A DNA stretch of 45,719 nucleotides from a marine gamma proteobacterium HTCC2148 (GTDB taxonomy: Bacteria; Pseudomonadota; Gammaproteobacteria; Pseudomonadales; Halieaceae): positions 261,442 through 307,160 of the forward strand of contig DS999223.1 in the NCBI GenBank assembly GCA_000156295.1, read 5' to 3'. The translations under genes were made by a program, and so were the position numbers. Below, one piece after another: positions 30,007 to 45,649 of this stretch. Below the pieces are notes generated by a model. That model saw only the letters and a program-made list of their open reading frames with translations. It ran no database searches and was not told the origin of the DNA. Positions within the stretch are counted from its first letter, which is position 1. The number at the start of each line of letters is the position of its first letter.

Positions 30007-30824
30007 GTGAGCGATCCGAAGACGGAGTTACTGCTTGGGAAAAATGTTCCTGTAGTAGAAGCGTACAGCCCACAGCTGCTTTATCCCATTGCCAGATCAA
30101 CGGCACGGGCAGAGCTTGGTTTGACAGAGGAATTGCCTTTTAACGGGGTCGACCTGTGGCACGCCTACGAGGTTTCGTGGCTCGATGAGCGCAACAAACC
30201 GGTTGTCAGGGTGGGGCGTTTCTTCATTCCCGCAGACTCGCCAGCGATGGTCGAGTCAAAGTCCTTCAAGCTTTATCTTAACTCATTGAATGGCTCTCGT
30301 TTTCTGCAGAGAGGGCGGTGCGTGAAACCCTCAAAAAGGATATTGAGAATACGGTCGGGGCAAGCATTGAGCTTGAGTTGCTGCCGGTTGATGCGGTTGA
30401 ACTTGATGGTGGTATTCCAGACGGGCTTTGCATCGATGACCTGCAGATCAGTATCGACAGCAGCCCTCCAGGCGTGAATTTGCTGCAGGCAGGTGAGGAA
30501 CTAGTCGAGGAGGCTGTTTACAGTCACCTGCTGCGCTCCCTGTGTCCAGTGACCGGTCAGCCAGATTGGGCCACGGTCTATGTTCGTTACCGCGGCAGAG
30601 CGCTGACCCATGAAAGTCTCCTGCGTTACCTTATTGCCTTTCGCAAACACCAGGAGTTCCATGAGCAGTGCGTAGAACGCATGTATTGTGATATTCACAA
30701 GCTGGTGAGCCCGGAATTTTTAGAAATACAGGCGTTTTACACCCGACGCGGCGGTCTGGACATAAACCCGTTTCGCAGTAGCGACGCCAATCCCATTCCA
30801 CTATCCAGAATGAATCGACAGTAA
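30007..30824 (+). pseudogene. queF: NADPH-dependent 7-cyano-7-deazaguanine reductase QueF, split by a one-base frameshift
   Basis: QueF reduces preQ0 to preQ1 for queuosine in tRNA. The frame from GTG 30007 gives the N-terminal half, including the family ESKSFKLYLNSLNGSRF segment; after about 30303 it becomes nonsense. The true continuation (AVRETLKKDIEN, then SLCPVTGQPDW with the catalytic cysteine, RYRGR, HEQCVERM and YTRRGGLDINPFRS) lies in the next frame up to 30824. Inserting one T in the TTTT at 30300-30303 restores a full-length bimodular QueF of about 272 residues. Every key residue is intact, so this is either a very recent mutation or a base-calling error in a homopolymer. Confidence 0.88.
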
Positions 30825-30899: not shown

Positions 30900-30987
30900 G
30901 GTGAGGTGGCCGAGTGGTCGAAGGCGCACGCCTGGAAAGTGTGTAACGGGAAACCGTTCGAGGGTTCGAATCCCTCCCTCACCGCCA
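30900..30987 (+). tRNA. tRNA-Ser (anticodon GGA)
   Basis: This is an 88-base class II tRNA with acceptor GGTGAGG pairing with CCTCACC, D arm GGCCGAGTGGTCGAAGGC, anticodon loop CTGGAAA with GGA, a long variable arm (AACGGGAAACCGTT), T arm GAGGGTTCGAATCCCTC and encoded CCA. The recombinase-like remnant that begins 18 bases downstream suggests that its 3' end served as an integration site. Confidence 0.96.
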
Positions 30988-31593: not shown

Positions 31594-32337
31594 ATGAATG
31601 GAAGTGAGCTGCTCAAAGCCGTCATCGGTTACGCCCGCACTGGTTTCAGGGATGGGTGTGGTCATTTGCATCTGCAGGAGACAGTGAATTTCTGCTCGCT
31701 TTTCAGTGACCTAAGTAGTCCGCATTTACGGGTTGCCTGCGCTGGTATTGCCTCGCTTCAGGGCGTTATTTTTCCAGAAGAACGGCTAGATATTCAAAAT
31801 GCTCACCCAAAGCGGCGCCGCGAGTTCATTGCCGGTCGACGAATGGCACGACAGCTTAGCCAGTCACTGGGTTTTCCTGACTATTCCCTGAGGCGTTCTG
31901 CACAGCGAGCGCCTCTATGGAGACATGGAGCCACCGGCAGTATTTCCCATAGCGCGACGATTTGTGCAGCAGCAGTGGCACGTAAGGCCGCCATTCCGGC
32001 CCTGGGTATCGATATCGAAGCGTTGGGCCGGGTGAGGCCCGAGTTGTGGGGCTCGATATTTACGGAATCAGAGCAGGAATTTCTCTACGCGCTCAGCACT
32101 ATAGAGGCGTGCCTGGCCGCCACAGTTATGTTCTCTGCAAAAGAGAGCTTTTATAAACTTCAGTACTCCATGACGGGCAATTGGGTTGGCTTTCACGATG
32201 TAGAGGTTAAGTTAATTGATGAGTCGCGCTGTCGAATTGCGCCCGTATCGAGTCAAGCTGATGTCTGGCATCAGCCCGATATTCACGTCGAGCGAGTTGG
32301 GTCAGATCACGTGGCAACGTTAATGCACATGAAGTGA
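31594..32337 (+). CDS. 4'-Phosphopantetheinyl transferase (EntD/Sfp type)
   Basis: This enzyme moves phosphopantetheine from CoA to the carrier-domain serine of synthetases. The 247-residue product has the N-terminal KRRREFIAGRRMAR motif, GSISHS, the metal-binding GIDIE (Asp140, Glu142) and FSAKESFYK (Lys183-Glu184), in family order. EntD/Sfp enzymes serve secondary-metabolism carriers. The natural client here is the carrier domain of the synthetase encoded at 35757-40022. GGGGGTGA precedes the ATG. The first 45 or so residues are not conserved in the family, so a later start is possible. Confidence 0.9.
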   Translation: MNGSELLKAVIGYARTGFRDGCGHLHLQETVNFCSLFSDLSSPHLRVACAGIASLQGVIFPEERLDIQNAHPKRRREFIAGRRMARQLSQSLGFPDYSLRRSAQRAPLWRHGATGSISHSATICAAAVARKAAIPALGIDIEALGRVRPELWGSIFTESEQEFLYALSTIEACLAATVMFSAKESFYKLQYSMTGNWVGFHDVEVKLIDESRCRIAPVSSQADVWHQPDIHVERVGSDHVATLMHMK

Positions 32338-32395
32338 CACAAGTGACGTAATGAACCATAAGCAGCAGACAGCAAGTTATCGAGTCCCTAAGTGA

Positions 32396-32424
32396 TTGAG
32401 TTTGCGGCTATTTCGGCTTACATT
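32396..32424 (+). promoter_or_regulatory. Possible promoter for the sbnA-sbnB-DUF418 operon
   Basis: TTGAGT (32396-32401), a 17-base spacer and TACATT (32419-32424) lie about 40 bases before the SbnA-like ATG, in the 126-base gap after the PPTase gene. This suggests that the three genes can be expressed apart from the PPTase gene. Confidence 0.5.
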
Positions 32425-32463
32425 GCGCTTCCGCTTTTAAACAATTTTTGACCGCGAGATGGC

Positions 32464-33483
32464 ATGAGAAATATACACACCTCAGTTTTGGAAGCCATCG
32501 GTGAAACGCCGATGATTCAGCTGGAGAGGTTCGGGGCGAGGGTCGAGCCAACACTGCTCGCAAAGCTTGAATTCACTAACCCCGGGGGTAGCATGAAGGA
32601 TCGAGCAGCGCTTGGCATGGTGGAGTGGGCCGAGCGTGAGTATGCTTTGCAGCCACAGGACGAAATTATTGTATCTACCTCCGGTAATCTCGGACTTGGT
32701 ATGGCGATGGTTTGTGCCGTAAAAGGCTACCGGTTAACCTGTCTTGTAGACCCCAAAGTAAATCCCTCCACCGAGCGGTGCATGCAACTTCTCGGTGCCG
32801 AGTTGGTAAAAGTTGATGAGCAGGATCATACTGGCGGCTACCACCTCTCCCGCTTAGATCGCCTGGAGTCTCTGCAGAAAGAGCGCCCTCGGGCTGTCTA
32901 CCTCGATCAGTACGACTGTCAGGCCGCAATCGACGCCCATCGGACCACGACAGGTCCTGAAATCTTTGCTCAGGTTGAAGGGAAACTTGATGCAATAGTG
33001 ATGGCGACAGGTACCGGCGGGAGTTCAATGGGGGTGGCCCAGTTTTTGCGGAAACATTCACCCAAGACCGAGATCTGGCTAGTGGACGAAAAGGGGTCGC
33101 TGGCGTTACCCGATAATGGAGGTGCAGCCCCTCGTTTTCTGAACGGGCTCGGTACCAGCATTGCTCCCGCAAACTTCGGGGGTGCCGAGGTGCATCAATA
33201 TGTCGATCATATTGTGTATGTCAACGCCGAAGAAAGTATCGCCGCCGCAGCTGAGCTGGCGTTGTCCGAAGGAATTCTCGTAGGCGGCTCCGGTGGTGCC
33301 GTCGTTCATGTCATGAAAAATTTGGTTGCCTCGAATTTCCAACTCGGCAGCACAATACTGTCACTCATTCCTGATCATGGCAGTCGTTACACGCAAACTC
33401 AATTCGATCCGGAATGGCTTTGCTCGATGGGGCTCGATGTGCCCTCAGTTACTTATTCTACAGTTGTGAAGCAGGACGCTTAA
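32464..33483 (+). CDS. sbnA: SbnA-like PLP enzyme (2,3-diaminopropionate biosynthesis)
   Basis: SbnA condenses O-phospho-L-serine with L-glutamate to N-(1-amino-1-carboxy-2-ethyl)-glutamate, first step to L-2,3-diaminopropionate (L-Dap). The 339-residue product is a cysteine-synthase-fold PLP enzyme: the PLP lysine is Lys45 in NPGGSMKDRA, the substrate loop is STSGNLG, and the phosphate-binding loop is GTGGSS. On sequence alone it could be a cysteine synthase or cystathionine beta-synthase relative. The gene four bases downstream encodes an SbnB-like protein, and this pairing is what identifies the pathway. It likely starts the operon. Confidence 0.87.
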   Translation: MRNIHTSVLEAIGETPMIQLERFGARVEPTLLAKLEFTNPGGSMKDRAALGMVEWAEREYALQPQDEIIVSTSGNLGLGMAMVCAVKGYRLTCLVDPKVNPSTERCMQLLGAELVKVDEQDHTGGYHLSRLDRLESLQKERPRAVYLDQYDCQAAIDAHRTTTGPEIFAQVEGKLDAIVMATGTGGSSMGVAQFLRKHSPKTEIWLVDEKGSLALPDNGGAAPRFLNGLGTSIAPANFGGAEVHQYVDHIVYVNAEESIAAAAELALSEGILVGGSGGAVVHVMKNLVASNFQLGSTILSLIPDHGSRYTQTQFDPEWLCSMGLDVPSVTYSTVVKQDA

Positions 33484-33487
33484 GCAG

Positions 33488-34510
33488 ATGACGTCGTCGA
33501 CTCTTTTTCTGTCACAGAATGACCTGATTGCTGCGGGTGCAACCGATATTGATCTTATCGGGAGTGTTCTAACGCAGGCTTTTCGGCTTCACACGGAGCA
33601 GGATTTTACTGCGCCACCCAGTAGCTTTTTAAAGCGTTCCGACTGCCCACATGTTGCCGATCGCATTATTGGTCTGTCTGCTCATGTGGGCGGTGAATTC
33701 AACATGGAGGGCATTAAATGGGTCGCCAGTTCGCATGTAAACCCCGACCACGGTCTACCCCGGGCCAATGCAGTCATTATTTTGAACGATCCTATTCACC
33801 GCCTGCCTGTAGCTATTATGGAAGGTGGGCTTATCAGCGCAATGCGAACGGCAGTCGTACAAGGCTTGGCGGCTAAGTACCTGGCCAGACCTGACGCGCA
33901 AACGGTGGGTCTAGTTGGCGCCGGTCGGATCGGTGCGCTGACGTTGTGGACTTTGTCTCAGTGGTTTCCACATATCAGTGACTACCGAGTATTTGATGTA
34001 TCGGCAGAACGAGCCCGCGCTTTCCAAGAGCACATGGAGCGGCAAGGCGTGAATGTATCGATCGTGAAATCTTTTCAAGCGGCGTTGGCCCCAGCAGATA
34101 TTGGCATCACTGCCACTACTGAATCGACGCCCTATGTGACTGCAGATGAATTTAAATCAGGGTCGCTATTTATGAATGTTTCGCTGATGGATCCGCAGTT
34201 TGATTTCGTGATGGCTGCAGACAAAGTTATAGTGGACGATTGGGAGCAGTGCGTGCATTCGGATAGGGTGCTGGCCAGAATGCATCGAGAGGGATTGCTT
34301 GATCGAGCGTCCATTCATGGCGAATTCGGTGAAGTGGTGTGCGGCAGTATTGCAGGCAGGGAGCACCCTGATGAGCGAATATTCTGGAACCCATTTGGTC
34401 TGGCGATAGAGGATATAGCGGTAGCATCGGTGTTGTATGAGCGGTCGCTGGCACGGCCGATAGGCCAGTCGATACAGTTGGTCGACCAGGAGTGGGACGT
34501 CCTTTTTTGA
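33488..34510 (+). CDS. sbnB: SbnB-like dehydrogenase (2,3-diaminopropionate biosynthesis)
   Basis: SbnB oxidatively hydrolyses the SbnA product to L-Dap and 2-oxoglutarate with NAD+. The 340-residue product belongs to the ornithine cyclodeaminase/mu-crystallin family. It has the SbnB-type GIKWVASSHVNPDHGLPRAN segment (Lys77), MRTAVVQGLAAKYL with Arg120, and a nucleotide-binding GAGRIG at 144-149. The stop overlaps the start of the DUF418 gene by one base (TGATG). An ornithine cyclodeaminase is the alternative, but the adjacent SbnA-like gene and the segment above favour SbnB. Confidence 0.87.
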   Translation: MTSSTLFLSQNDLIAAGATDIDLIGSVLTQAFRLHTEQDFTAPPSSFLKRSDCPHVADRIIGLSAHVGGEFNMEGIKWVASSHVNPDHGLPRANAVIILNDPIHRLPVAIMEGGLISAMRTAVVQGLAAKYLARPDAQTVGLVGAGRIGALTLWTLSQWFPHISDYRVFDVSAERARAFQEHMERQGVNVSIVKSFQAALAPADIGITATTESTPYVTADEFKSGSLFMNVSLMDPQFDFVMAADKVIVDDWEQCVHSDRVLARMHREGLLDRASIHGEFGEVVCGSIAGREHPDERIFWNPFGLAIEDIAVASVLYERSLARPIGQSIQLVDQEWDVLF

Positions 34511-35709
34511 TGACGACGAATAGCTCGGGGGGCCGTCTTGAGTTTCTTGATGTGCTTCGGGGTGTAGCGTTATTTGGCATTCTTACCGTCAATGTCTTCA
34601 GTTTCGGTGCTGAGTCTGCGGCGTGGGTCACCGCCCCTGATAGGGTGGCGTGGCATATCAAGTATTTTTTCTTTGAGTCGAAGTTCTGGTCGTTATATAG
34701 CCTTTTGTTCGGTATGGGGTTCTACCTGCAAGTATCGTCCGAGGGCTATTCCATGATCAAAAGCATTCGGCGCCTGACCGCGTTGATGTTGATTGGTTGC
34801 CTGCATGCCCTCCTGTTCGAGGGAGATATTTTGATGCTGTATGCCGAATTAGGGCTGCTATTACTTGTAGCGTACCGATGGCCTACCGCGATGTTAATGT
34901 CGTTGGGCGTGGTGCTGTTAATGAGCTTTCCTTTGGGGCATTTTTTTGCGGGTGACCGGGGTGACGATTGGCCGGCTAAGGACCATGCAGAGGCCCTGGA
35001 GTGGCTTCAATCCGATCGGGCGGATGCGGTTGAAGCCGTGGGAACGCTTCCCGAGATTGCGGTTTACCATGCCCAGTTTATACCTGAGAGGTTCTGGGAG
35101 GATTGGCAGTATCCGGATTCTGGATTGCTAGTACTTGCCCACTTTATTTTTGGTTTCTGTTTCATGCGAGGCGGGTGGCAATGGCTGCGTGCCTGTTCTG
35201 GAATTCAATTGCGCAGGATGTGCCTGGGGTTCTGGAGCCTGGGCATTGTTCTGATGTGTGTGGAGCGCTACCTGACGCATCGGTATGGATATTCGCTTTT
35301 CGAAGGGTCCGTGGCCTCAGAAGGGCTAGTTTTGCTCGGAGATTTGACCTACCTACTGGCTACCGTCAGTCTTAGCGCTGCGTGGTTTTTGAGCGTATGG
35401 ATCTGGGTTGACTGCGGAGCTTTTCGGCGGCTGAGAGCTTCTCTAGCGACTGCGGGGCGGCTGAGCTTGAGCTTATACCTTACCCAGACACTGGTATTTA
35501 CCAGCGTCTTTTATGGATATGGGCTGGGTTATGCTTATCAATGGGGTCCGCTGTCAGTAATCTGCTTTGCCGTATTCGTCTTCTTTTTGCAGTTACTGCT
35601 GAGTGCTTACTGGAGTCGATACTTCATATACGGGCCAGTGGAATGGCTGTGGCGTGTGTTCACCTACTTTGAATGGGAGCCGATTCGGCGCAGCCCTGTC
35701 AATCGCTGA
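34510..35709 (+). CDS. DUF418 multi-pass membrane protein
   Basis: The product (399 residues from ATG 34510; an upstream ATG at 34492 lies inside sbnB) has about ten hydrophobic segments. It shows the DUF418 hallmarks: an N-terminal RLEFLDVLRGVALFGILTVN, and a C-terminal GRLSLSLYLTQT with GPVEWLWRVFTYFEW. The family (YeiB-like) is uncharacterised but related to membrane acyltransferases. Its coupling to sbnB by TGATG places it in the pathway. It could export or acylate the product, which is inference. It converges on the synthetase gene with only 47 bases between. Confidence 0.87.
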   Translation: MTTNSSGGRLEFLDVLRGVALFGILTVNVFSFGAESAAWVTAPDRVAWHIKYFFFESKFWSLYSLLFGMGFYLQVSSEGYSMIKSIRRLTALMLIGCLHALLFEGDILMLYAELGLLLLVAYRWPTAMLMSLGVVLLMSFPLGHFFAGDRGDDWPAKDHAEALEWLQSDRADAVEAVGTLPEIAVYHAQFIPERFWEDWQYPDSGLLVLAHFIFGFCFMRGGWQWLRACSGIQLRRMCLGFWSLGIVLMCVERYLTHRYGYSLFEGSVASEGLVLLGDLTYLLATVSLSAAWFLSVWIWVDCGAFRRLRASLATAGRLSLSLYLTQTLVFTSVFYGYGLGYAYQWGPLSVICFAVFVFFLQLLLSAYWSRYFIYGPVEWLWRVFTYFEWEPIRRSPVNR

Positions 35710-35756
35710 CAGGTCGGTTCGACGGCCATATTTTCTTTAGTACCTGAGGTGTTGTC

Positions 35757-38700
35757 CTAGTCATAGTCAGCGCCGGATGGGAGCGGCATCGCAGGGTTGC
35801 CTGCGTGTATGCCACGGCTGAGGTGCATGGCTTTGAAAATAAGCGACTGGGGATGCACGGTGACGCCGGCTTCCAGGTTAGCACCGCCCATCAGCATTGA
35901 GCCGCAGTTAATAACAGTTCCTGCCCCTATCTTTGATCGCTTTACGGTCAGCAATCGTTCCTCAAAGCTGTGCAACTGCAATTGGCTGTTTACGATACAG
36001 TCGCTGCCAATGTCCACCGCGTGCCAGTCTGACATTTGAAGAGGCTGCCCGATCAGGGAACGTTTTCCGATTCGGCATCCAAACCTACGTAAAACTGGAT
36101 TGGCTAGTGCGGTACCTGACAAGGCAGTGAGTGTGCCCGACAGAAGCTTGAAAAAGCAATCCTGCGCCAGAAAATAGCTGAAGTGGCGTATTGACCAAAA
36201 AGGTGTTGTGTTATCTCGGCCCCAGTGCGCACCCACCAAAATATTTTTCAACCCAAGCGCGATTAAGAACAACAGAAAAGGGGCGAAGAGGCTGGTGATC
36301 AAAGCCGCGGAGATGTTACTAAAGCCTAATGTGTTGAGCGTTATAAGCAATAGCCCCCCCAGAAAAACCGTGAGGCCCGGCACAATCGCAACGGAGGCGA
36401 AGTCATTCAATAGGAATCGTGCCAGAAATATTCCCAGAGAGGGTGATGGGTGAACAGGTTGTGTCCGCCGCGTTGTTGTACCTATTTCAAGCGGAGGGTT
36501 GCCCGCAAGCACGCGTGGGATGTCAGGGCGATCCCGGTACTGGTTCCGATATAGGTGAGGCCCGATGCCAGTGGAGACCCCCAAGAGAAGGTTTCCGGGC
36601 AAAGGACCGTTCTCTACCATGGCATTGTTGCTGGCGAAAAATCCTGCCGGCAAGTCAATCGGCCGAGCTAATAAAAATCCACCATGCTCATCCAGAACGT
36701 TGCAGTAGCAACCCTGCGCCACAAAGATATTGGCGTCAGCGGTGAGATGCTCTGGCAGCAGGTTGACCAGGGCGTCACATTCAGAAGCGCCCACTTTGGA
36801 AAATTTTACGCCGGCCAGGGCCCGAAGATATTGCCCCGTCAAGCTCCAGCCCCACATGTGCTGTATCTGATTCATTTTCTGTTGCCTGTAACGGGCGAGG
36901 GTACCATGCAGGCTGGTCGAGGAAATCCAGCCTGATCGTGTCGGTGTGAGGCGCAAAAATCCGCACAATAACAGTGAACTTGCCAGGACGCCCAGCCAGA
37001 TGCCTACAGTACCAGCACCGGCAACCGCCAGTAGATCGGGCCAGTTTATCTGTTCAAATCCCAAAGTGGCTTTATTGAACGCGTCAAACCCTAGAATGTA
37101 GGTGCTTACAAGTGCTATAGCTGATCCGGGCAGAATGATCAGAGTTAACTCGAGCACCATTTGGAAAAAGACGTTGCGTGTATCTGTTATCCCCGCTTTA
37201 AAAGGGCCCATTTTGGTTGACTGCGGCGCTGTAAATGGCTGGGCGGCGCCGACTACGCGCCCCGGCACGCCATCAACTTGCACATTTTCACCGGTAATTG
37301 CGGATAATGAGGACATGGGCGTAAGCCATGAATTCGCGCCTAAACAGGCGCCGCTGTAGACCATGCCTCGGCTTCCGACACGTGCAGCCGCGCAAATATG
37401 AACAGGTTTGACGGTGCAGTGCTCACCCTCCCAGACCACCATACTGATTTGAGCTCCCGCTTGAATAATGGCGTTACGCTCTACTGTCAGTAATGACAGT
37501 GGGCCGAACCACTCTGTGCTTTGTGATATGTTTGCGCTCGCGTGAACGCTGGCACCGAGTTTACGCAACATCCAGTTGTAAAGCAGTTGACTGCGCAGTC
37601 CCTTGGATAATGGGCGTATAACAAAATCCGTTTGCTGTTCAGCCCACCATAGTTGCAGGTGCTGCGCCGAGAATTTCTGATATCTGCCGGGTGCGATTTC
37701 AGGCAGAAACCCAGACCAGCCCATAACCGCGCCCAGCGCCTTAACCCAGAGCAAGTTAACAAACGGGACCAGCATGTACAGGCCGTAAACAACGATTGTG
37801 GCGGTGATGAAGCCTGTTATGTCGCCTGCCAGAAGCAGTTCTTCTGGATTGACAATAGCCAGGCCCAGAACCGCGAAAACGAAGAGCGGCAGCCGAAGAG
37901 TTATGGCGCCGACGGCCTGCATCAGGCTGAAGTGACGAAACGCCAATGGCGTGTCTTGAGCTACGTCCCGCTGTTTTTGATCTTTAGACGCCCTCGCGCT
38001 GACTCTTTCATCGCGCGTTTTTGCAGCGGAGTCACTGTTGATGCCGAGATCTGCGATTTTTCCTGCACTGCGATGATCGCTAAGTAGACTCCTCACGCTG
38101 ACGTCGTAGCCCGCGCTTTGCAGAGTCTGGGTGAGTTGGGCGACAGCGATAGAATGCGCGCCCCAGTCCATGAAATCGTCATGCCAATTAAGGGATGCAC
38201 CCAATTCAGCCCGGCACATCGCAAGGACCGCCGGGTCTCTCTCGTGGTCACTTTCTGGGTCTTGTCCGGCAATCGATTCACCTGAACCGTCGGCAACGAA
38301 AAATTGTGATATCTGTGGCAGTGCTTGGCGGTCAATTTTGCCTGAGGCGGCGACTAGCTCGAATTTGTCCACCATAAAGAACCGAGTGGGTATGGCGTGG
38401 GGTGGGTGCGACCTGCCTATCAGTGCTTGTGCCCGCGAACGAATAGAAGAGGGCAGGGCTCTGATGCTGCCTTTTTCATCGGACTCCTGCCAGAGTTTAG
38501 GTGAGCGAACCAGCGCTACCAGTTCATTATTCTGACTACTCAGTACCGCTGTTTCGACGTCCGCGAAATGGTCTTGCAAGATTGACTCAATGGGCTGTGC
38601 TTCAACCCTGAATCCACGTACTTTTAATTGTGAGTCCAGACGACCATGGAAATGTACCCTCATTGTATAGGCATCAACATGGCAGCGATCTCCAGAGCGA

Positions 38701-40022
38701 TAGAGACGACCATAGGTAGGATGGTGAATGAATTTCTCGCGTGTGATTACATCCAGATTGCGATAACCCCTGGCCAACTGACAACCACCGATGCAGAGTT
38801 CGCCTTCCTCACCATGCGGCATAAGGCGCAGCGTGCCGGGCTCAAGGATATGGTATGACACGCCGGGGAAAGGGCTGCCGATGGTAACGGGTTCATCAGG
38901 CCTGAGCAGTTGGCGACTTGTATCGGTGCTCACCTCCGTTGGGCCATAGGTATTAACTATTTGGCGGCGAGCCGCCGACCAGGCAGGCACGAGCGATGCG
39001 GGGAAGGCCTCACCAGCGGGCACGATGTAGCGACAAACCGGATAAGGTAGATCTGTTGCGGGCTTATCGGTGAGCGTTGAGAGCAGTACAGGCGGGCAAA
39101 ACAGCGTCGTAATGTTGTGTTGCCGAAGTATAGGGAGTAGGCCCGGCCCGGAACGAAGTTCGGCCTTGGTTAATAAGACGACTTCGCATCCAGCGAGCCA
39201 GGCGCTATACATTTCTGAAATACTGCCGTCATAGCCTAGCGAAGATGTTAACGAGGTGGCATCGCTCTCTGGTACGAAGTCAAAAAACTGCGCATACGAC
39301 TTGGCGAGGTTGATGTAGCCCGCATGATGACACTCGACGCCCTTCGGAACGCCTGTCGTGCCGCTGGTATAAAAAATCGAAGCCAGTCTCTCCTGTGGAT
39401 CATCGAGCCAGGCGGGTGACTGCTCTTGACGTAGTGTCATGTCCTCAAGGTTCTGGGCAGCTGCGTCAGCATACTGGTTCGGTTGAAGCTCGTCAGGGCG
39501 CAATACGGGAACGTCGAGGCCAGCCACTGACTCCTCGGAAATCAGTAGCACCGGTGCTGCATCCAGCAAGGTTTGTTGGCACGCTGCCTCTGGTGCCTCT
39601 GGGTCCAGAAATAACTGTACGCCGCCAGCTTTTAGGATCGCCAAGTGGATCGCTACTATATCGGCTGTATTTTGTTCCAGGCGCACCGCGACTACTTGGT
39701 CCGGACCTGACAGATAGAAACCGATGCGATTCTTAAATTGCTCAGCTCGCTCGTTGAGCGCCCTATAGCTGAGCGTTTCGCCGGTACTCGCAACAGACAA
39801 AGCAGTCAACTCGGGGAAGGTAGCCGCTGATCGCTCAAACAACTCATGTAGCCATTGTGTATCCTGCTGGTGGCTATGAGTGCCCCAGGGGTTTTCGGGT
39901 GCTGGGTTGGACAAGAAGGGTTTGGGCGAAGCTGGACGAGTAGTCTCAGCTGCAATCAATCGATATCGGAACCACGCTGCGGTTACAGCCGCTGGAATGA
40001 TCACCATCCATATTAGTGACAT
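35757..40022 (-). CDS. Pls/PosA-type nonribosomal peptide synthetase (A-T plus membrane C-terminal domains)
   Basis: The 1421-residue single-module synthetase has an adenylation domain (about 55-570: IFYTSGTTGVPKG at 216-228, A4 Asp265 of the alpha-amino-acid pocket, NTYGPTE at 357-363, YRSGDR at 441-446, A10 Lys562) and a carrier domain with Ser624 in DWGAHSI. There is no ordinary condensation or thioesterase domain. Three soluble blocks with hexapeptide-repeat-like sequence (about 775-945, 1035-1205 and the C-terminus) alternate with three pairs of transmembrane helices (about 705-760, 950-1022, 1210-1270). This is the layout of epsilon-poly-lysine synthetase Pls and poly-ornithine synthetase PosA, which polymerise one basic amino acid. 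The neighbouring sbnAB suggests L-Dap as substrate. The N-terminal hydrophobic stretch (1-20) and weak ribosome site leave the start slightly uncertain. Confidence 0.9.
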   Translation of the reverse strand: MSLIWMVIIPAAVTAAWFRYRLIAAETTRPASPKPFLSNPAPENPWGTHSHQQDTQWLHELFERSAATFPELTALSVASTGETLSYRALNERAEQFKNRIGFYLSGPDQVVAVRLEQNTADIVAIHLAILKAGGVQLFLDPEAPEAACQQTLLDAAPVLLISEESVAGLDVPVLRPDELQPNQYADAAAQNLEDMTLRQEQSPAWLDDPQERLASIFYTSGTTGVPKGVECHHAGYINLAKSYAQFFDFVPESDATSLTSSLGYDGSISEMYSAWLAGCEVVLLTKAELRSGPGLLPILRQHNITTLFCPPVLLSTLTDKPATDLPYPVCRYIVPAGEAFPASLVPAWSAARRQIVNTYGPTEVSTDTSRQLLRPDEPVTIGSPFPGVSYHILEPGTLRLMPHGEEGELCIGGCQLARGYRNLDVITREKFIHHPTYGRLYRSGDRCHVDAYTMRVHFHGRLDSQLKVRGFRVEAQPIESILQDHFADVETAVLSSQNNELVALVRSPKLWQESDEKGSIRALPSSIRSRAQALIGRSHPPHAIPTRFFMVDKFELVAASGKIDRQALPQISQFFVADGSGESIAGQDPESDHERDPAVLAMCRAELGASLNWHDDFMDWGAHSIAVAQLTQTLQSAGYDVSVRSLLSDHRSAGKIADLGINSDSAAKTRDERVSARASKDQKQRDVAQDTPLAFRHFSLMQAVGAITLRLPLFVFAVLGLAIVNPEELLLAGDITGFITATIVVYGLYMLVPFVNLLWVKALGAVMGWSGFLPEIAPGRYQKFSAQHLQLWWAEQQTDFVIRPLSKGLRSQLLYNWMLRKLGASVHASANISQSTEWFGPLSLLTVERNAIIQAGAQISMVVWEGEHCTVKPVHICAAARVGSRGMVYSGACLGANSWLTPMSSLSAITGENVQVDGVPGRVVGAAQPFTAPQSTKMGPFKAGITDTRNVFFQMVLELTLIILPGSAIALVSTYILGFDAFNKATLGFEQINWPDLLAVAGAGTVGIWLGVLASSLLLCGFLRLTPTRSGWISSTSLHGTLARYRQQKMNQIQHMWGWSLTGQYLRALAGVKFSKVGASECDALVNLLPEHLTADANIFVAQGCYCNVLDEHGGFLLARPIDLPAGFFASNNAMVENGPLPGNLLLGVSTGIGPHLYRNQYRDRPDIPRVLAGNPPLEIGTTTRRTQPVHPSPSLGIFLARFLLNDFASVAIVPGLTVFLGGLLLITLNTLGFSNISAALITSLFAPFLLFLIALGLKNILVGAHWGRDNTTPFWSIRHFSYFLAQDCFFKLLSGTLTALSGTALANPVLRRFGCRIGKRSLIGQPLQMSDWHAVDIGSDCIVNSQLQLHSFEERLLTVKRSKIGAGTVINCGSMLMGGANLEAGVTVHPQSLIFKAMHLSRGIHAGNPAMPLPSGADYD

Positions 40023-40055
40023 GGGTTAACGAAGTTCACTGTTGATGCATGGGGG

Positions 40056-41105
40056 TCAAGAAAAATAAGATTCCATTGCCCCGCGGCGGCGCGTATCAAG
40101 GGTGACGCAGTGAAAGCCTCCCCCCATCATTCTGGAATGCCTCAATTTGAGTGGGACTACGTTCATGCCCTTCGTTTCAAGAAGTGTTATCAGCGCCGTT
40201 TGATCGCTGTCGACCACCACTGTATCCGGACCGAGGCTGAAGAGATTCATATCGATCCATTCGCTGCCGATGGCTTTCTCGAGATAGGTTGCGCTGTGTC
40301 GGGCCTGGTTCTCCATAGGAGGGCTATAAATAACCTCCCATTCTCTCAGAAAATCTGGAATTGTCTCATCGTCTATCCGCTCTGGGTTTGCCAGCACCAG
40401 ACCAGGCCTGAGAGCGACCAGTGTCGAGTCGATATGGCTGCCATAATATACGTCCCGCATAAAGTGAACTCGAAATTCGTCGCCCAGTGCGCGTTGTAGC
40501 CAGTAGCCGCCCATTTCATTGCCTGTTGCGCTAACTAAATAAAGTAGATCCCGACCAAAACGCAACACATTGGCCGCATCGAAAGCGGGTTCATGATTGC
40601 GAGGAGTGGGTTTGGAGGGATCAAAATCAAAAAGGCTATCAGCCAGCAGCGGCTTCGGCGCGCTGAACCAAATTGCGCCGTCCTGCAGGTATTCAACCAG
40701 CATGCTGCGATAACTGCCAGTTTCGATTGATCGGCCGCGTATGACATTGGGTGTCTCGATGATTCTGTCACCGACAACCAGAAGTACATCTCTGGGACAA
40801 TAGTTGTAGTAGCCCTTGGATGCCCAAAGCGTAGTTTTAATGGTCGACGCATGTGGCCAGCGTTCAGGTCTCCTCACCACAATGCCCAGTGCGGTCATCG
40901 CATCAATGAAGAGCTGCAAATCCTCTTCCGTTTCGTCAATGATTTGCTGTGGGAAAGGGCCTTGGGGAATATCGTTGAGCTGTCGGTCCGGATACTCGGC
41001 TAATTGTGTACTTGGATCAGCAAAAGGAAAGTGGGCGTCAAGGGGGTTGCCTACAACCACTTCTTCGAGTGGGTCCCACTCATTACAGCTCCATAACTTC
41101 GACAT
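40056..41105 (-). CDS. Arginine:X amidinotransferase (glycine amidinotransferase family)
   Basis: This family transfers the amidino group of arginine to an acceptor amine, releasing ornithine. The 349-residue product is full length and has all three catalytic residues: Asp176 in PAFDAANVLRFGRD, His224 in GSHIDSTL, and the nucleophile Cys333 in GGGFHCVTLDTRRRG. Relatives include mammalian AGAT and secondary-metabolism enzymes such as CyrA, SxtG and AmtA, so the acceptor cannot be read from sequence. It lies 33 bases upstream of the synthetase gene on the same strand. Its acceptor is plausibly L-Dap or a Dap-containing product. No clear ribosome site precedes the ATG. Confidence 0.92.
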   Translation of the reverse strand: MSKLWSCNEWDPLEEVVVGNPLDAHFPFADPSTQLAEYPDRQLNDIPQGPFPQQIIDETEEDLQLFIDAMTALGIVVRRPERWPHASTIKTTLWASKGYYNYCPRDVLLVVGDRIIETPNVIRGRSIETGSYRSMLVEYLQDGAIWFSAPKPLLADSLFDFDPSKPTPRNHEPAFDAANVLRFGRDLLYLVSATGNEMGGYWLQRALGDEFRVHFMRDVYYGSHIDSTLVALRPGLVLANPERIDDETIPDFLREWEVIYSPPMENQARHSATYLEKAIGSEWIDMNLFSLGPDTVVVDSDQTALITLLETKGMNVVPLKLRHSRMMGGGFHCVTLDTRRRGAMESYFS

Positions 41106-41182: not shown

Positions 41183-41557
41183 TCAGATCTCCGCAGTTTC
41201 CCACAGTGCGCTGCCGTGGCATGACATCGTTTCACCTTCCATTCCGGCGGCGTCAGAGTCGGGATAAACGTCCCAAAAAGCGCCGTAGGCAGCAAAGGAC
41301 GGCCATTTGACAGTGTAAATAAGATCTGTGCCAAGGCCGTCGGCACCGACAGCAACTGGGAAATGAATTTGCTGTGTAATTGCATCACCTCCGGGTAACG
41401 TCGCTGCCGCCTTCTTCCAATCCGCAGCGTGTTTCAATACCTGCTCTTCAGAAAGGTCGTCGTTGAGCTGGCACTTCCACATATGAGTGGGCGAACCGGC
41501 ATTCGCAAGTGGCGAAATGAGGCACAGTGCACTCAGGGTTGCTAATAAATACTTCAT
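41183..41557 (-). CDS. Small secreted protein of unknown function
   Basis: The 124-residue product has a signal peptide (KYLLATLSALCLISPLANA) and is probably periplasmic or secreted. The mature part has two cysteines (MWKCQLND and MSCHGS) that could pair, an acidic SEEQVLKHAADWKKAAA helix, and a FPVAVGADG/VKWPSFAAYGAFWDVY stretch. I recall similar small proteins from marine gammaproteobacteria but no function. The frame is open further upstream (to 41650), but GAGGAGAAAAACG directly before ATG 41557 and the signal peptide decide the start. A palindrome at 41606-41622 lies 49 bases upstream. Confidence 0.75.
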   Translation of the reverse strand: MKYLLATLSALCLISPLANAGSPTHMWKCQLNDDLSEEQVLKHAADWKKAAATLPGGDAITQQIHFPVAVGADGLGTDLIYTVKWPSFAAYGAFWDVYPDSDAAGMEGETMSCHGSALWETAEI

Positions 41558-41704: not shown

Positions 41705-42844
41705 TTAGTCAGCGGTCTGCAACTCCGGTCGGACCCACTTGCCAGAAAAGTAGTCTGTCAGTGGCGTGTAAATGCGCAGTGTTGCATTCCAGCCAGGATA
41801 AACAGGCAAATAATTATCAGCAGAAGGGTCACCGCCAAAGTTCACGACGGTGTCGCCATTGGCATCAGACTTGGCAAACGAGCTGTTTATATTGAAGGGG
41901 TCAGAGGCCACAAAACCCTCTTCGTCATAAACCGTGATCGACCAAAACGCAGTGGCTGCATGGGGCACCTCCCTAAGGGTTAGCGTCTGATGTTCACTCG
42001 AGTCGGACGTATAAAAAAGATACACCGCGCCCTCCTTCGGTTGACCACCCCAGCCGACCGCCACGCCTACATTAGCCATGTCCTGGTCAATTTCGTCCTG
42101 CTTACCGAACATGTCCTCTGATTTATAGCCTTTTTCGTCGCGCAGAATCTGCAACTCTTTGCGCATAGCCAGAATAGCGTCTTTGTCCCAGCGGTTAGTA
42201 AACACCATTTCCCCCGACGCGGCCTGCTCGACAGAAATCAGATCCTGAAGCTTGTTGGCCTCGGCAATATCCTCCTGATTCTGCATGTTCATCTGTGTTC
42301 TGAAACCCACCAACACATAACGGGAACCTGAATTGTCGCGGGTTAGCGTAAAGCTTCCGGGCTCTGTAATGACAAACGGCATCCAGTGACCTTCGTTAAG
42401 TACCTGCGCCGACTGATACCGGCCATTGGTCTCGGGCATTGAGATGGTGGCGGGAGTGGTAAGGTCCAGCAGTACCCATGAATACAACGTGTCGTAGTTC
42501 ACTCGAGCAAACGCACGGTGACTGGGGTCAGAAGGCTTGCGCTCATGCATAAGCACACCCATCCCGTCTGTGCAGGTCGCCTTGGCGATCATCGAGATAT
42601 ATGGCCCGGCAAATAGAGACTGAGTCTCGGCGGTCGCGTAATTTTGAGAAGTCAGAGGGGTGAACTCTTCCGCTTCCACCCGCACTGCGGGCGCAGGACA
42701 CTCCTTATCCTCTTGCGCCTGAACAGTCGGTAACCAGACAAGACATAGTGCAGCGAGCATACATAGCAACAACAGGCTTCCTTTCTTGGGCAGATGTCTC
42801 GATACGATGAGTGCGTGAGTCGATCCGGTACTGGATGGATACAT
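41705..42844 (-). CDS. Periplasmic DUF1254/DUF1214 protein, copy A
   Basis: The 379-residue product has a long signal peptide (LLLLCMLAALCLVWLPTVQAQ). It carries a DUF1254-type part (FARVNYDTLYSWVLLDLTTPATISMPETNGRYQS) and a DUF1214-type part (VGWGGQPKEGAVYLF, FWSITVYDEEGF, NFGGDPSADNYLPVYPGWNATLRIYTPL). The family is widespread and uncharacterised. AAGGAG lies eight bases before the ATG. The downstream neighbour on the same strand is its paralogue's partner, 80 bases away. Both domains appear complete. Function unknown. Confidence 0.87.
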   Translation of the reverse strand: MYPSSTGSTHALIVSRHLPKKGSLLLLCMLAALCLVWLPTVQAQEDKECPAPAVRVEAEEFTPLTSQNYATAETQSLFAGPYISMIAKATCTDGMGVLMHERKPSDPSHRAFARVNYDTLYSWVLLDLTTPATISMPETNGRYQSAQVLNEGHWMPFVITEPGSFTLTRDNSGSRYVLVGFRTQMNMQNQEDIAEANKLQDLISVEQAASGEMVFTNRWDKDAILAMRKELQILRDEKGYKSEDMFGKQDEIDQDMANVGVAVGWGGQPKEGAVYLFYTSDSSEHQTLTLREVPHAATAFWSITVYDEEGFVASDPFNINSSFAKSDANGDTVVNFGGDPSADNYLPVYPGWNATLRIYTPLTDYFSGKWVRPELQTAD

Positions 42845-42924: not shown

Positions 42925-44034
42925 TCAATTGCCCACCGGCAGGAGCGAGGGAATTCCCCAGCTGCCATCAAAGTACTCGGCCTGGGGCGAGTAAATGCGG
43001 AAGGTCGCGTTCCAGCCCTGATAGACCTCGAGGTAGTTCTCCTGATCGGGTGAGCCGCCGAAGTGCACAACGGTCTCGCCTTCATCGTTCGCAGTAGCAA
43101 AGGTGCTGTTCAGACTAAAGTGCTCGCCCTGGGGGTAACCGTCCTTGTCGTATACTGTGATAGACCAGAAAGCATTGTTGGCCATGGGCACATCCTTCAC
43201 CAAGAGGGTTTGTGGCGCGTTGGGCTCGTCATCGATAAACAGGTAAATTGCGCCCTCCTTGGTTTGGCCGCCCCAGCCCACGGCGGGGCCAAAGTTGTGC
43301 ATATCCTGAGTGATCTCGCCGCGAGCGCCGGCCATATCTTCCGAGGGCACTTTGTCGCGCACCGCGCGAGCTTGGTAGGCTTTCCGCATGGCCAGGATAT
43401 CATCCATGTCCCAGGCGTCGCTGGCCACATAGCTGCCTGGGACTTCCTGTGCCACCTGAATCTGATCCTGCAGCGCATGCACGGCTTTTAGGTCTTCCTC
43501 ATCACCCATGGTCACCTGAGTGCGGAAGATCACAATCGCGTACTGCCCACCCACGTTCTCCTGAGTAAGTTCATAGGTGCCGGGCCGTTGGAAGATAAAC
43601 GGAATATAGTGCTCCTCGTCTAATACCTCGGCGCTTTGATAGCGGCCGTCGGTCTCGGGCAGCGTGATGATCGCCGGCGTTGTGAGGTCCAGAATCAAAA
43701 ACGAATAAATGGTGTCAAAGTTGATGCGCAAAATTGTGCGATCAGTGGGGTCGGGCGTATTACGCAGGTGCATGAGCTGGCCCACGCCGCCGCTGCAGGT
43801 AGTCGCGGCGATCTTGCGCACATAGTCGGCAAAGATCACCTGGGTCTCGGCCAGCGAGTAGTTCTGCTCACTCACGCTTGTAGTGGGCCCTGCTTTTACT
43901 GAGAGCGCTGGGGCAGGGCAGTGGTCGTCAGCTAGCACAGTTTGCTGGGCGGCCATCAGCGCGCCTCCTAAAACCAGCATTGCACTGGAGCGAATGCAGC
44001 GTTGTAAAAAAGTGTTGGGGTTGAGAGCGAACAT
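42925..44034 (-). CDS. Periplasmic DUF1254/DUF1214 protein, copy B
   Basis: This 369-residue paralogue of copy A has the same layout: a signal peptide (SSAMLVLGGALMAAQQTVLAD), a mature N-terminus beginning DHCPAPALSV as in copy A (KECPAPAVRV), the LRINFDTIYSFLILDLTTPAIITLPETDGRYQS block, and the C-terminal VGWGGQTKEGAIYLF and FGGSPDQENYLEVYQGWNATFRIYSP blocks. AAGGAGG precedes the ATG. It is upstream of copy A on the same strand with no terminator between, so the two probably form an operon derived by tandem duplication. Confidence 0.87.
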   Translation of the reverse strand: MFALNPNTFLQRCIRSSAMLVLGGALMAAQQTVLADDHCPAPALSVKAGPTTSVSEQNYSLAETQVIFADYVRKIAATTCSGGVGQLMHLRNTPDPTDRTILRINFDTIYSFLILDLTTPAIITLPETDGRYQSAEVLDEEHYIPFIFQRPGTYELTQENVGGQYAIVIFRTQVTMGDEEDLKAVHALQDQIQVAQEVPGSYVASDAWDMDDILAMRKAYQARAVRDKVPSEDMAGARGEITQDMHNFGPAVGWGGQTKEGAIYLFIDDEPNAPQTLLVKDVPMANNAFWSITVYDKDGYPQGEHFSLNSTFATANDEGETVVHFGGSPDQENYLEVYQGWNATFRIYSPQAEYFDGSWGIPSLLPVGN

Positions 44035-44632: not shown

Positions 44633-45649
44633 CTAGAGCACCAGCTCTGCCATATTGCGCATTAGGTTCTCATCGCCATTAATCAGCAGGCTGGTGACAG
44701 GGGAGTTCTCCCAGTCTTTGAGTTTCTCTTTGACTCTGTCCAGTGGACCGCAGAGGGATATTTCGTCTGCAAACTGATCGGGCACTGCTGCTATACCTTC
44801 GTCTCTTTTGCCCTCAAGAAACAACCGTTGAATCTCATCCGCTTCATCAGGGAAACCCATGCGTGCCATCAACTCCTTATGGAAATTTCGCTTTGCTGCG
44901 CCCATTCCGCCAACATAGAAGGCAAGCATGGCCTTCACCGGATACAGGGCATCGTTCAGGTTGTCGTTGATATAAACCATGACAGTCGGCGAAATCTCAA
45001 ACCCTTCCTTGGCGGCGACTAGCTGGTCAGCATATACATCCTGGCGATACGGAGAATAGTAAAGCGGCAACCATCCGTCGGCGATTTGTGCTGTCTGGGT
45101 GACGTTTTTAGGACCCTCGGCACCAATAAAAATGGGCACATCCGCTCTTACAGGGTGAGTGATCGGTTTCAGTGGCTTGCCCATGCCCCAGGAGCCAGGG
45201 CCCTCGTAAGGCAGTGGATAGAATTCACCATTACTGGTGACTGGGGCTTCTCTGGCCAATACTTGGCGAATGATGTCTACGTATTCACGGGTACGTGTGA
45301 CAGGTTTGGAATAGGGCTGGCCATACCAGCCTTCAACGACTTGCGGTCCGGATACACCGAGGCCAAGGATCATGCGACCTCCAGAGAGCGCATCCAGTGC
45401 TAGTGCGGCCATTGCACAGGCGGTTGGCGTTCGTGCCGAAAGCTGAGCTACCGATGTGCCCAGTCGAATGCGCGAGGTTTGTGCACCTATCCAGGAGAGC
45501 GGGGTGAAGCAATCATTACCCCAGGATTCTGCAGTCCAAACTGAATCAAACCCAAGCTTTTCCGCCGCCTGTGCCAGTTCGGTGTGATTGTTCCCCGGGC
45601 ACAGTGCTCCCCAGTAGCCCAGTTGTAAGCCCAATTTGAGTTTTGTCAT
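44633..45649 (-). CDS. LLM-class flavin-dependent oxidoreductase
   Basis: The 338-residue product is a luciferase-like TIM-barrel oxidoreductase, close to the F420-annotated group. It has LGLQLGYWG at the N-terminus, AEKLGFDSVWTAESWGND, the TSRIRLGTSVAQLSARTPTA strand-turn, ALDALSGGRMILGLGVSGPQ, and the late PIFIGAEGPKNVTQTAQIADGWLP segment. Whether it uses F420 or FMN cannot be told from sequence. GAGAGGAGC precedes the ATG. It is a single gene at the right edge; the 70 bases beyond hold nothing further that I can identify. Confidence 0.88.
   Translation of the reverse strand: MTKLKLGLQLGYWGALCPGNNHTELAQAAEKLGFDSVWTAESWGNDCFTPLSWIGAQTSRIRLGTSVAQLSARTPTACAMAALALDALSGGRMILGLGVSGPQVVEGWYGQPYSKPVTRTREYVDIIRQVLAREAPVTSNGEFYPLPYEGPGSWGMGKPLKPITHPVRADVPIFIGAEGPKNVTQTAQIADGWLPLYYSPYRQDVYADQLVAAKEGFEISPTVMVYINDNLNDALYPVKAMLAFYVGGMGAAKRNFHKELMARMGFPDEADEIQRLFLEGKRDEGIAAVPDQFADEISLCGPLDRVKEKLKDWENSPVTSLLINGDENLMRNMAELVL

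Follow-up and report, generated by a model that had tools for sequence, protein, structure and literature searches.

The genes at positions 31594–41105 of the window (the whole 45,719-nucleotide stretch of DNA analyzed, from the marine gammaproteobacterium HTCC2148) raise the question of what they make together. The initial annotation, made from the sequence alone, proposed a pathway to L-2,3-diaminopropionate (Dap) that is optionally amidinated and then linked into a short cationic peptide or polymer. Its product is probably a cationic natural compound that has yet to be described, and the evidence on its precursor, its modification and its final form is treated below.

Gene content and genomic setting

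The six ORFs of the initial annotation were all recovered at the same positions and on the same strands (Table 1). To these is added a seventh gene of the set, absent from that annotation, which encodes a small secreted protein and heads the amidinotransferase–synthetase operon. The plus-strand genes are in the order PPTase, SbnA, SbnB and DUF418, with 4 bases between sbnA and sbnB and the ATG of the DUF418 gene overlapping the sbnB stop (an alternative start is the GTG at 34492). On the minus strand the secreted-protein gene comes first, 77 bases from that of the amidinotransferase, which in turn is 33 bases from that of the synthetase. The plus- and minus-strand sets are convergent, with 47 bases between them.

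Table 1. Features of the gene set and its left edge, in window coordinates.
Feature	Position	Strand	Evidence
tRNA-Ser(gga), left edge of lineage-specific stretch	30900..30987	+	
4'-phosphopantetheinyl transferase (PPTase)	31594..32337	+	Pfam 4PPT_N 84 bits, ACPS 58 bits
SbnA-like PLP enzyme	32464..33483	+	TIGR03945 280 bits; PDB SbnA 5d87
SbnB-like dehydrogenase	33488..34510	+	TIGR03944 346.6 bits; PDB 4m54
DUF418 membrane protein, predicted N-acetyltransferase fold	34510..35709	+	PF04235
Single-module synthetase, A + T + Pls-like membrane terminal domain	35757..40022	-	Pfam, NCBIfam, hydropathy
Arginine:amine amidinotransferase	40056..41105	-	PDB 1bwd, E 4.6e-109
Small secreted protein, dimeric alpha-beta-barrel fold	41183..41557	-	signal peptide by eye

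The congener comparison included five fetched stretches, of which two end before the site. The gene set is inside a 13.6 kb stretch that is missing from all three of the congeners for which the site is fully covered: the similarity runs to the tRNA-Ser and restarts at window position 44633 after approximately 1.4, 1.4 and 4.2 kb, against 13.6 kb in the window. Since all three spanning congeners have a short stretch between the same edges, the set is here a lineage-specific insertion. The amidinotransferase was found in none of seven congeners. The window genome and strain HTCC2080 (L035) belong to the same family, and further amidinotransferase matches are labelled Halieaceae.

The remainder of the insertion encodes, on the minus strand, two related and probably secreted proteins (41705–42844 and 42925–44034) that are 51% identical; the 76% relative in HTCC2080 (G018) is on a contig other than that of the amidinotransferase. 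At 30007–30824 on the plus strand, a queF-like gene is split over two overlapping frames and corresponds to a single 272-residue ORF in three congeners; either the frame is broken or the sequencing introduced an error.

Recurrence of the set across phyla

The scan with the amidinotransferase as seed, including one genome per species, identified 55 loci. Together with the loci from the scan of congeners and family members these gave 58 amidinotransferase matches, of which 51 were at least 60% identical; these counts include L009, which is the window, and L010, which repeats the L035 locus. According to the records' own labels, the loci include those of Luminiphilus and other Halieaceae, Alphaproteobacteria (Zhengella mangrovi), delta strain NaphS2, Verrucomicrobiota, Planctomycetaceae, Thermoanaerobaculales and a Chloracidobacterium assembly. 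The amidinotransferase–synthetase pair recurs in Halieaceae, Alphaproteobacteria, NaphS2, Verrucomicrobiota, Planctomycetes and Acidobacteriota.

Among the amidinotransferase loci with at least 60% identity and at least 1500 bases past the match, 37 of 42 have a synthetase (35 of 40 without repeats). The five loci without a synthetase match are L036, L045, L048, L051 and L054, and the contig of L048 starts with a synthetase end. The initial annotation regarded amidination as optional; because 37 of the 42 close amidinotransferase loci with room downstream have a synthetase, it hardly looks optional, an association measured by this seeding from the amidinotransferase side only. Synthetase-seeded searches of 398 phylum genomes and 369 class genomes produced no further member of the clade.

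SbnA and SbnB occur together in 20 of the 51 loci at or above 60% identity, a group in which contig ends cut many loci short. Seventeen of the synthetase loci have long flanks at either end, and here the set recurs in different degrees: a DUF418 or TraX protein was found in 16 of them, the gene for the secreted protein in 13, a PPTase in 11 and SbnA together with SbnB in 10. In some other lineages a TraX-family protein takes the place of DUF418. SbnA, SbnB, amidinotransferase and synthetase are co-linear on one strand in L029, L030, L033, L039, L046, L049 and L050.

It is extremely improbable that the genes are chance neighbors or an assembly artefact. Many of the related loci come from metagenome assemblies and their labels may be wrong, but named strains (HTCC2080, Zhengella mangrovi and NaphS2) carry the set as well, and the genome of the window has a completeness of 99.9%.

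Other genes were also seen repeatedly near the set. Several Halieaceae loci in the group L013–L027 have a common trio 5' of the secreted-protein gene, consisting of a 167-residue protein, an SDR-like protein and an FAD_binding_2 protein. A Tricorn-C1/S41 peptidase-like protein is encoded near the set in L029, L030, L033, L036, L037, L042 and L046, all outside the lineage of the window.

Putative Dap-making pair and amidinotransferase

The best NCBIfam family of the window SbnA was TIGR03945, with a score under the cut-off of 349.95 bits, and its best PDB match was SbnA (E 3e-55). The same cut-off was passed by the SbnA of L029 (363.7 bits), L030 (372.2 bits) and L039 (384.2 bits); those of L049 (341.8 bits) and L050 (344.6 bits) were slightly below it. 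The window SbnB exceeded the TIGR03944 cut-off of 326.9 bits and was the sole match to this family in the genome. In comparison to staphyloferrin B synthesis, homologues of both SbnA and SbnB are present and SbnB is over the curated cut-off, but SbnA is below its own and the neighbors are not recognizably siderophore synthetases.

In seven representative loci the amidinotransferases are 65–81% and the synthetases 41–71% identical. The SbnA sequences of the same loci are divided into four groups (window and L035; L029 and L030; L049 and L050; L039), with 33–38% identity between the groups, and the SbnB sequences are 31–50% identical between them. The trees separate the window-type SbnA and SbnB from the rest with full support; the branches are long, and the tree program cautions that joins of this kind can be false. 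A genome in the window's own family (G012) carries, at locus L011, the other SbnA/SbnB type. Different SbnA/SbnB stocks are found beside amidinotransferases and synthetases that are alike; therefore one lineage of the latter is paired with different Dap-making pairs. The Dap pair thus seems to have been recruited or displaced more than once, and we take this pairing as the strongest evidence for Dap as the precursor.

The test for absence of SbnAB included nine genomes, picked since their loci show no SbnAB (L018, L022–L024, L026, L027, L042, L043 and L053; the contigs of L023 and L026 end at or soon after DUF418), together with three SbnAB-positive genomes. No SbnB over the cut-off was found in any of the nine, mostly metagenome assemblies and possibly incomplete, while all three positives were detected. 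Neither was SbnA over the cut-off in any of the nine, which is a weak test as two of the three positives were also below it (one of the twelve genomes over). Also in L040 no SbnAB was found nearby. L019 and L020 have SbnB–SbnA between DUF418 and a shared next gene, where both are missing in L022, L024, L027 and L053, and the absence in these four looks like loss. Strains without SbnAB may have an outside source of Dap, or their acceptor may be other than Dap. The L-Dap route of the initial annotation is supported by the recurrence of the SbnA/SbnB pair with the set; against it stand the nine genomes that have the amidinotransferase–synthetase pair and no SbnB over the cut-off.

Of 13 genomes searched for Dap ammonia-lyase, three had it over the cut-off, and each of these belongs to the nine in which no SbnB passed. 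In the lineage of L018, L021 and L023 it is encoded near the set (487 bits in L018, cut-off 276), within a divergent operon (4964–9384 in L018) that also encodes EutA-like, glutamine amidotransferase and M24 proteins. Past this operon, ABC-importer-like genes were recognized by eye in L018 and L023. The EutA-like protein (ectoine utilization) reached 230 bits with a cut-off of 318, and the M24 protein scored higher as PepQ (Xaa-Pro dipeptidase; 89.9 bits) than as DoeA (ectoine hydrolase; 75 bits), the cut-offs being 630 and 575. The divergent operon may serve to catabolize Dap or a cyclic amidine derived from it.

For the amidinotransferase, no Pfam or NCBIfam family was found at E 0.001. Its best PDB match was the inosamine-phosphate amidinotransferase StrB1 (1bwd), and SxtG, HsvA and AGAT ranked below. 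Asp176, His224 and Cys333, which align to 1bwd and form the catalytic triad, were invariant in all 51 aligned rows. StrB1, SxtG, HsvA and AGAT are sequence homologues with the same Asp-His-Cys; unlike them, the window enzyme has no Pfam or NCBIfam match and is associated with a Pls-like synthetase. The joint recurrence across phyla of a Dap-making pair, a triad-intact amidinotransferase and a Pls/PosA-like synthetase is borne out, and the neighboring genes suggest an acceptor other than the scyllo-inosamine phosphate of StrB1.

That the amidinotransferase acts on some other amine (glycine, lysine or a polyamine), with Dap as a separate unit of a mixed product, we regard as improbable. The nine genomes having the pair without a clear SbnB would agree with it, as would AGAT (glycine, according to the PDB title) and HsvA, whose substrate is another amine; but different SbnA–SbnB stocks lie directly upstream of the amidinotransferase, and the synthetase pocket code described below is identical in loci with and without SbnAB.

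Related amidinotransferases were detected also in other kinds of clusters, in Robbsia (61.7%) and Streptomyces hygroscopicus (61%). In L101, on the Robbsia plasmid p3, the amidinotransferase (approximately 61%) has neighbors annotated as a peptide ligase, an SDR and an aldehyde dehydrogenase, and in L054 (also approximately 61%) the neighbors are similar by eye. No Pls-like synthetase was seen in the clusters of L054 or L101.

Synthetase and the proposed product

The synthetase consists of a short hydrophobic N terminus (by eye), an A domain (residues approximately 62–570), a T domain (599–658) and a Pls-like membrane terminal domain (approximately 690–1411), in which a simple hydropathy scan placed three pairs of membrane segments (approximately 698–768, 951–1026 and 1196–1267). 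The A-T-terminal layout is that of Pls and PosA. The Pls/PosA family TIGR02353 matched with 115.8 bits (E 1.9e-33, profile positions 65–695; 117.6 bits in the genome search), and the cut-off of 423 was not reached. Members over this cut-off were found in seven of the 369 class genomes. These seven, together with two enzymes from the 398 phylum genomes, were used as nine generic Pls-like enzymes, leaving out G517 and G761 (below the cut-off). The branch between the clade and these relatives had a length of 2.6 changes per site and a support of 100/100; judged by this tree, the synthetase is a long-branched sister clade and no ordinary Pls/PosA enzyme. The fetched stretches of the nine generic loci included no matches to amidinotransferase, SbnA, SbnB, DUF418 or PPTase.

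The pocket residues were read by alignment, in GrsA numbering. The code DGSF(V/I)ATTDK was constant in all 35 parsed rows, representing 33 distinct loci (DGSFVATTDK in the window). Position 299 was V in 24 rows and I in 11, and the last Lys was present in all 31 rows reaching it, lying past the end of the remaining four. Fifteen of the 50 cluster members were not parsed, these being five TraX proteins and otherwise fragments or sequences missed by the regular expression; the unparsed L018, L021 and L023 have the same pocket motifs, with position 278 not displayed. The generic Pls synthetases have Glu239 in nine of nine and Asp331 in none of nine, as against Ser239 and Asp331 in the clade. The reading of the pocket is sound, since it returned exactly the code of PosA for L102 and L103, and for L071 one of the codes that PMC10522769 prints.

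According to the accessible text of PMC10522769, Glu221 mutants of PosA are inactive, making the pocket Glu essential, and the characterized Dap polymerase (PDAP synthetase) has Phe at the position of PosA Met218, the adjacent Glu being conserved in the family. This Phe236/Glu239 pocket, as described in that text, is absent from the clade, which has Gly236 and Ser239. Plain poly-Dap, one of the products suggested in the initial annotation, is therefore less likely. In PMC12283262 Asp331 is part of some reported Arg codes and also of a Dab code; being in both, it suits a basic side chain and cannot separate guanidine from amine.

PosA (delta-poly-L-ornithine, Acinetobacter baumannii; accessible text of PMC10522769) and Pls (epsilon-poly-lysine) share the layout and the three membrane pairs, but the window enzyme differs from them in its separate clade, its score below the TIGR02353 cut-off, its pocket and its dedicated gene partners. 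The poly(L-diaminopropionic acid) pathway of Streptomyces albulus PD-1 (NjxA, NjxB and PDAP synthetase) has a comparable Dap supply and synthetase, in which cysteine-synthase-like and ornithine-cyclodeaminase-like enzymes feed Dap to a single-module A-T-membrane enzyme; no amidinotransferase is mentioned in the accessible portion of that source (PMC4668381), whereas one is present here.

The predicted fold of the DUF418 protein is that of the N-acetyltransferase HGSNAT (heparan-alpha-glucosaminide N-acetyltransferase), with an identity of 13–16%, and on this model the product is probably N-acetylated by DUF418.

Our preferred reading, to which we give slightly less than an even chance and which draws on the observed gene content, the recurrence of the set, the intact triad, the constant deviant pocket and the predicted DUF418 fold, is that the product of the locus is a cationic compound derived from Dap by amidination; every substrate and the order of the steps we infer, as also polymerization, acetylation and export. 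SbnA and then SbnB would synthesize Dap, and the PPTase would prime the T domain of the synthetase. The amidinotransferase would transfer the amidino group from arginine to Dap in the cytosol, the simplest amidinated unit being 2-amino-3-guanidinopropionate (beta-guanidinoalanine, a shortened arginine), which the A domain, with a pocket unlike those of the diamino-acid polymerases, would load on the T domain. As the amidino donor arginine is cytosolic and the diamino-acid pocket is lost, amidination is placed before loading. The membrane terminal domain would then join the units through the alpha amine, the side chain being blocked, or release the product. N-acetylation of this product, across the membrane, would be the task of DUF418 (TraX-family elsewhere), and the secreted alpha-beta-barrel protein would handle it outside.

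The same genes could also make an isopeptide polymer, in which Dap is joined through its beta amine and either the alpha amines (to beta-poly-alpha-guanidino-Dap) or the finished chain are amidinated. The known Pls-type enzymes link through the side-chain amine, as stated in the accessible text of PMC10522769, and the predicted match of the DUF418 fold to an amine acetylase would fit free amines in the product. The donor arginine is, however, cytosolic and the terminal domain a membrane domain, and the clade does not retain the pocket residues that the text describes for the known Dap polymerase; we consider this polymer unlikely.

When five members of the clade are compared with two of the generic Pls enzymes, 44 residues of the terminal domain are invariant. 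This suggests chain formation and speaks against a small cyclic guanidine, in which a beta-guanidinoalanine thioester would close through its own guanidine to an aminodihydropyrimidinone, or the guanidino acid to an imino-imidazolidine, with acetylation following. Such cyclization is chemically favorable and such a ring is found in TAN-1057, and the operon of the L018 lineage has the EutA-like and M24 proteins beside Dap ammonia-lyase; the M24 protein is, however, closer to PepQ than to DoeA, both far below the cut-offs. Such a cyclic product appears rather unlikely.

In the literature searched, no description of this gene set was found, in agreement with the initial annotation, to which no described product was known, and neither was any paper combining SbnA, SbnB and an amidinotransferase, or an amidinotransferase and diaminopropionate. 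Diaminopropionic acid, amidinotransferase and nonribosomal peptide synthetase occur together in one paper, a survey of signatures (PMC12283262, accessible part), and under the names guanidinoalanine and norarginine the one biosynthesis title among the matches listed, as far as these sources were accessible, concerned CmnC of capreomycin. Since subscription journals were mostly outside the search, the novelty of the gene set is provisional.

Extended beyond the window, the preferred reading of an amidinated Dap-derived compound would describe a second branch of the membrane homopolymer synthetases that takes a guanidino amino acid in place of a diamino acid. Several phyla would make acetylated beta-guanidinoalanine oligomers (a non-ribosomal polyguanidine) or a derived cyclic guanidine, and would have recruited the precursor pathway on several separate occasions; this we put forward as possible but rather doubtful. 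If true, it would add a guanidino branch to a synthetase family whose characterized members, in the accessible sources, make diamino-acid polymers, and polyguanidines of a short arginine would be potential antimicrobials or cell-penetrating materials. The pocket code DGSF[VI]ATTDK is a testable code for a substrate yet to be assigned, and the amidinotransferase together with the clade synthetase forms a marker pair for the product in genomes, those of named marine strains included. As some small Luminiphilus genomes have no SbnAB, Dap exchange between marine bacteria becomes a testable question.
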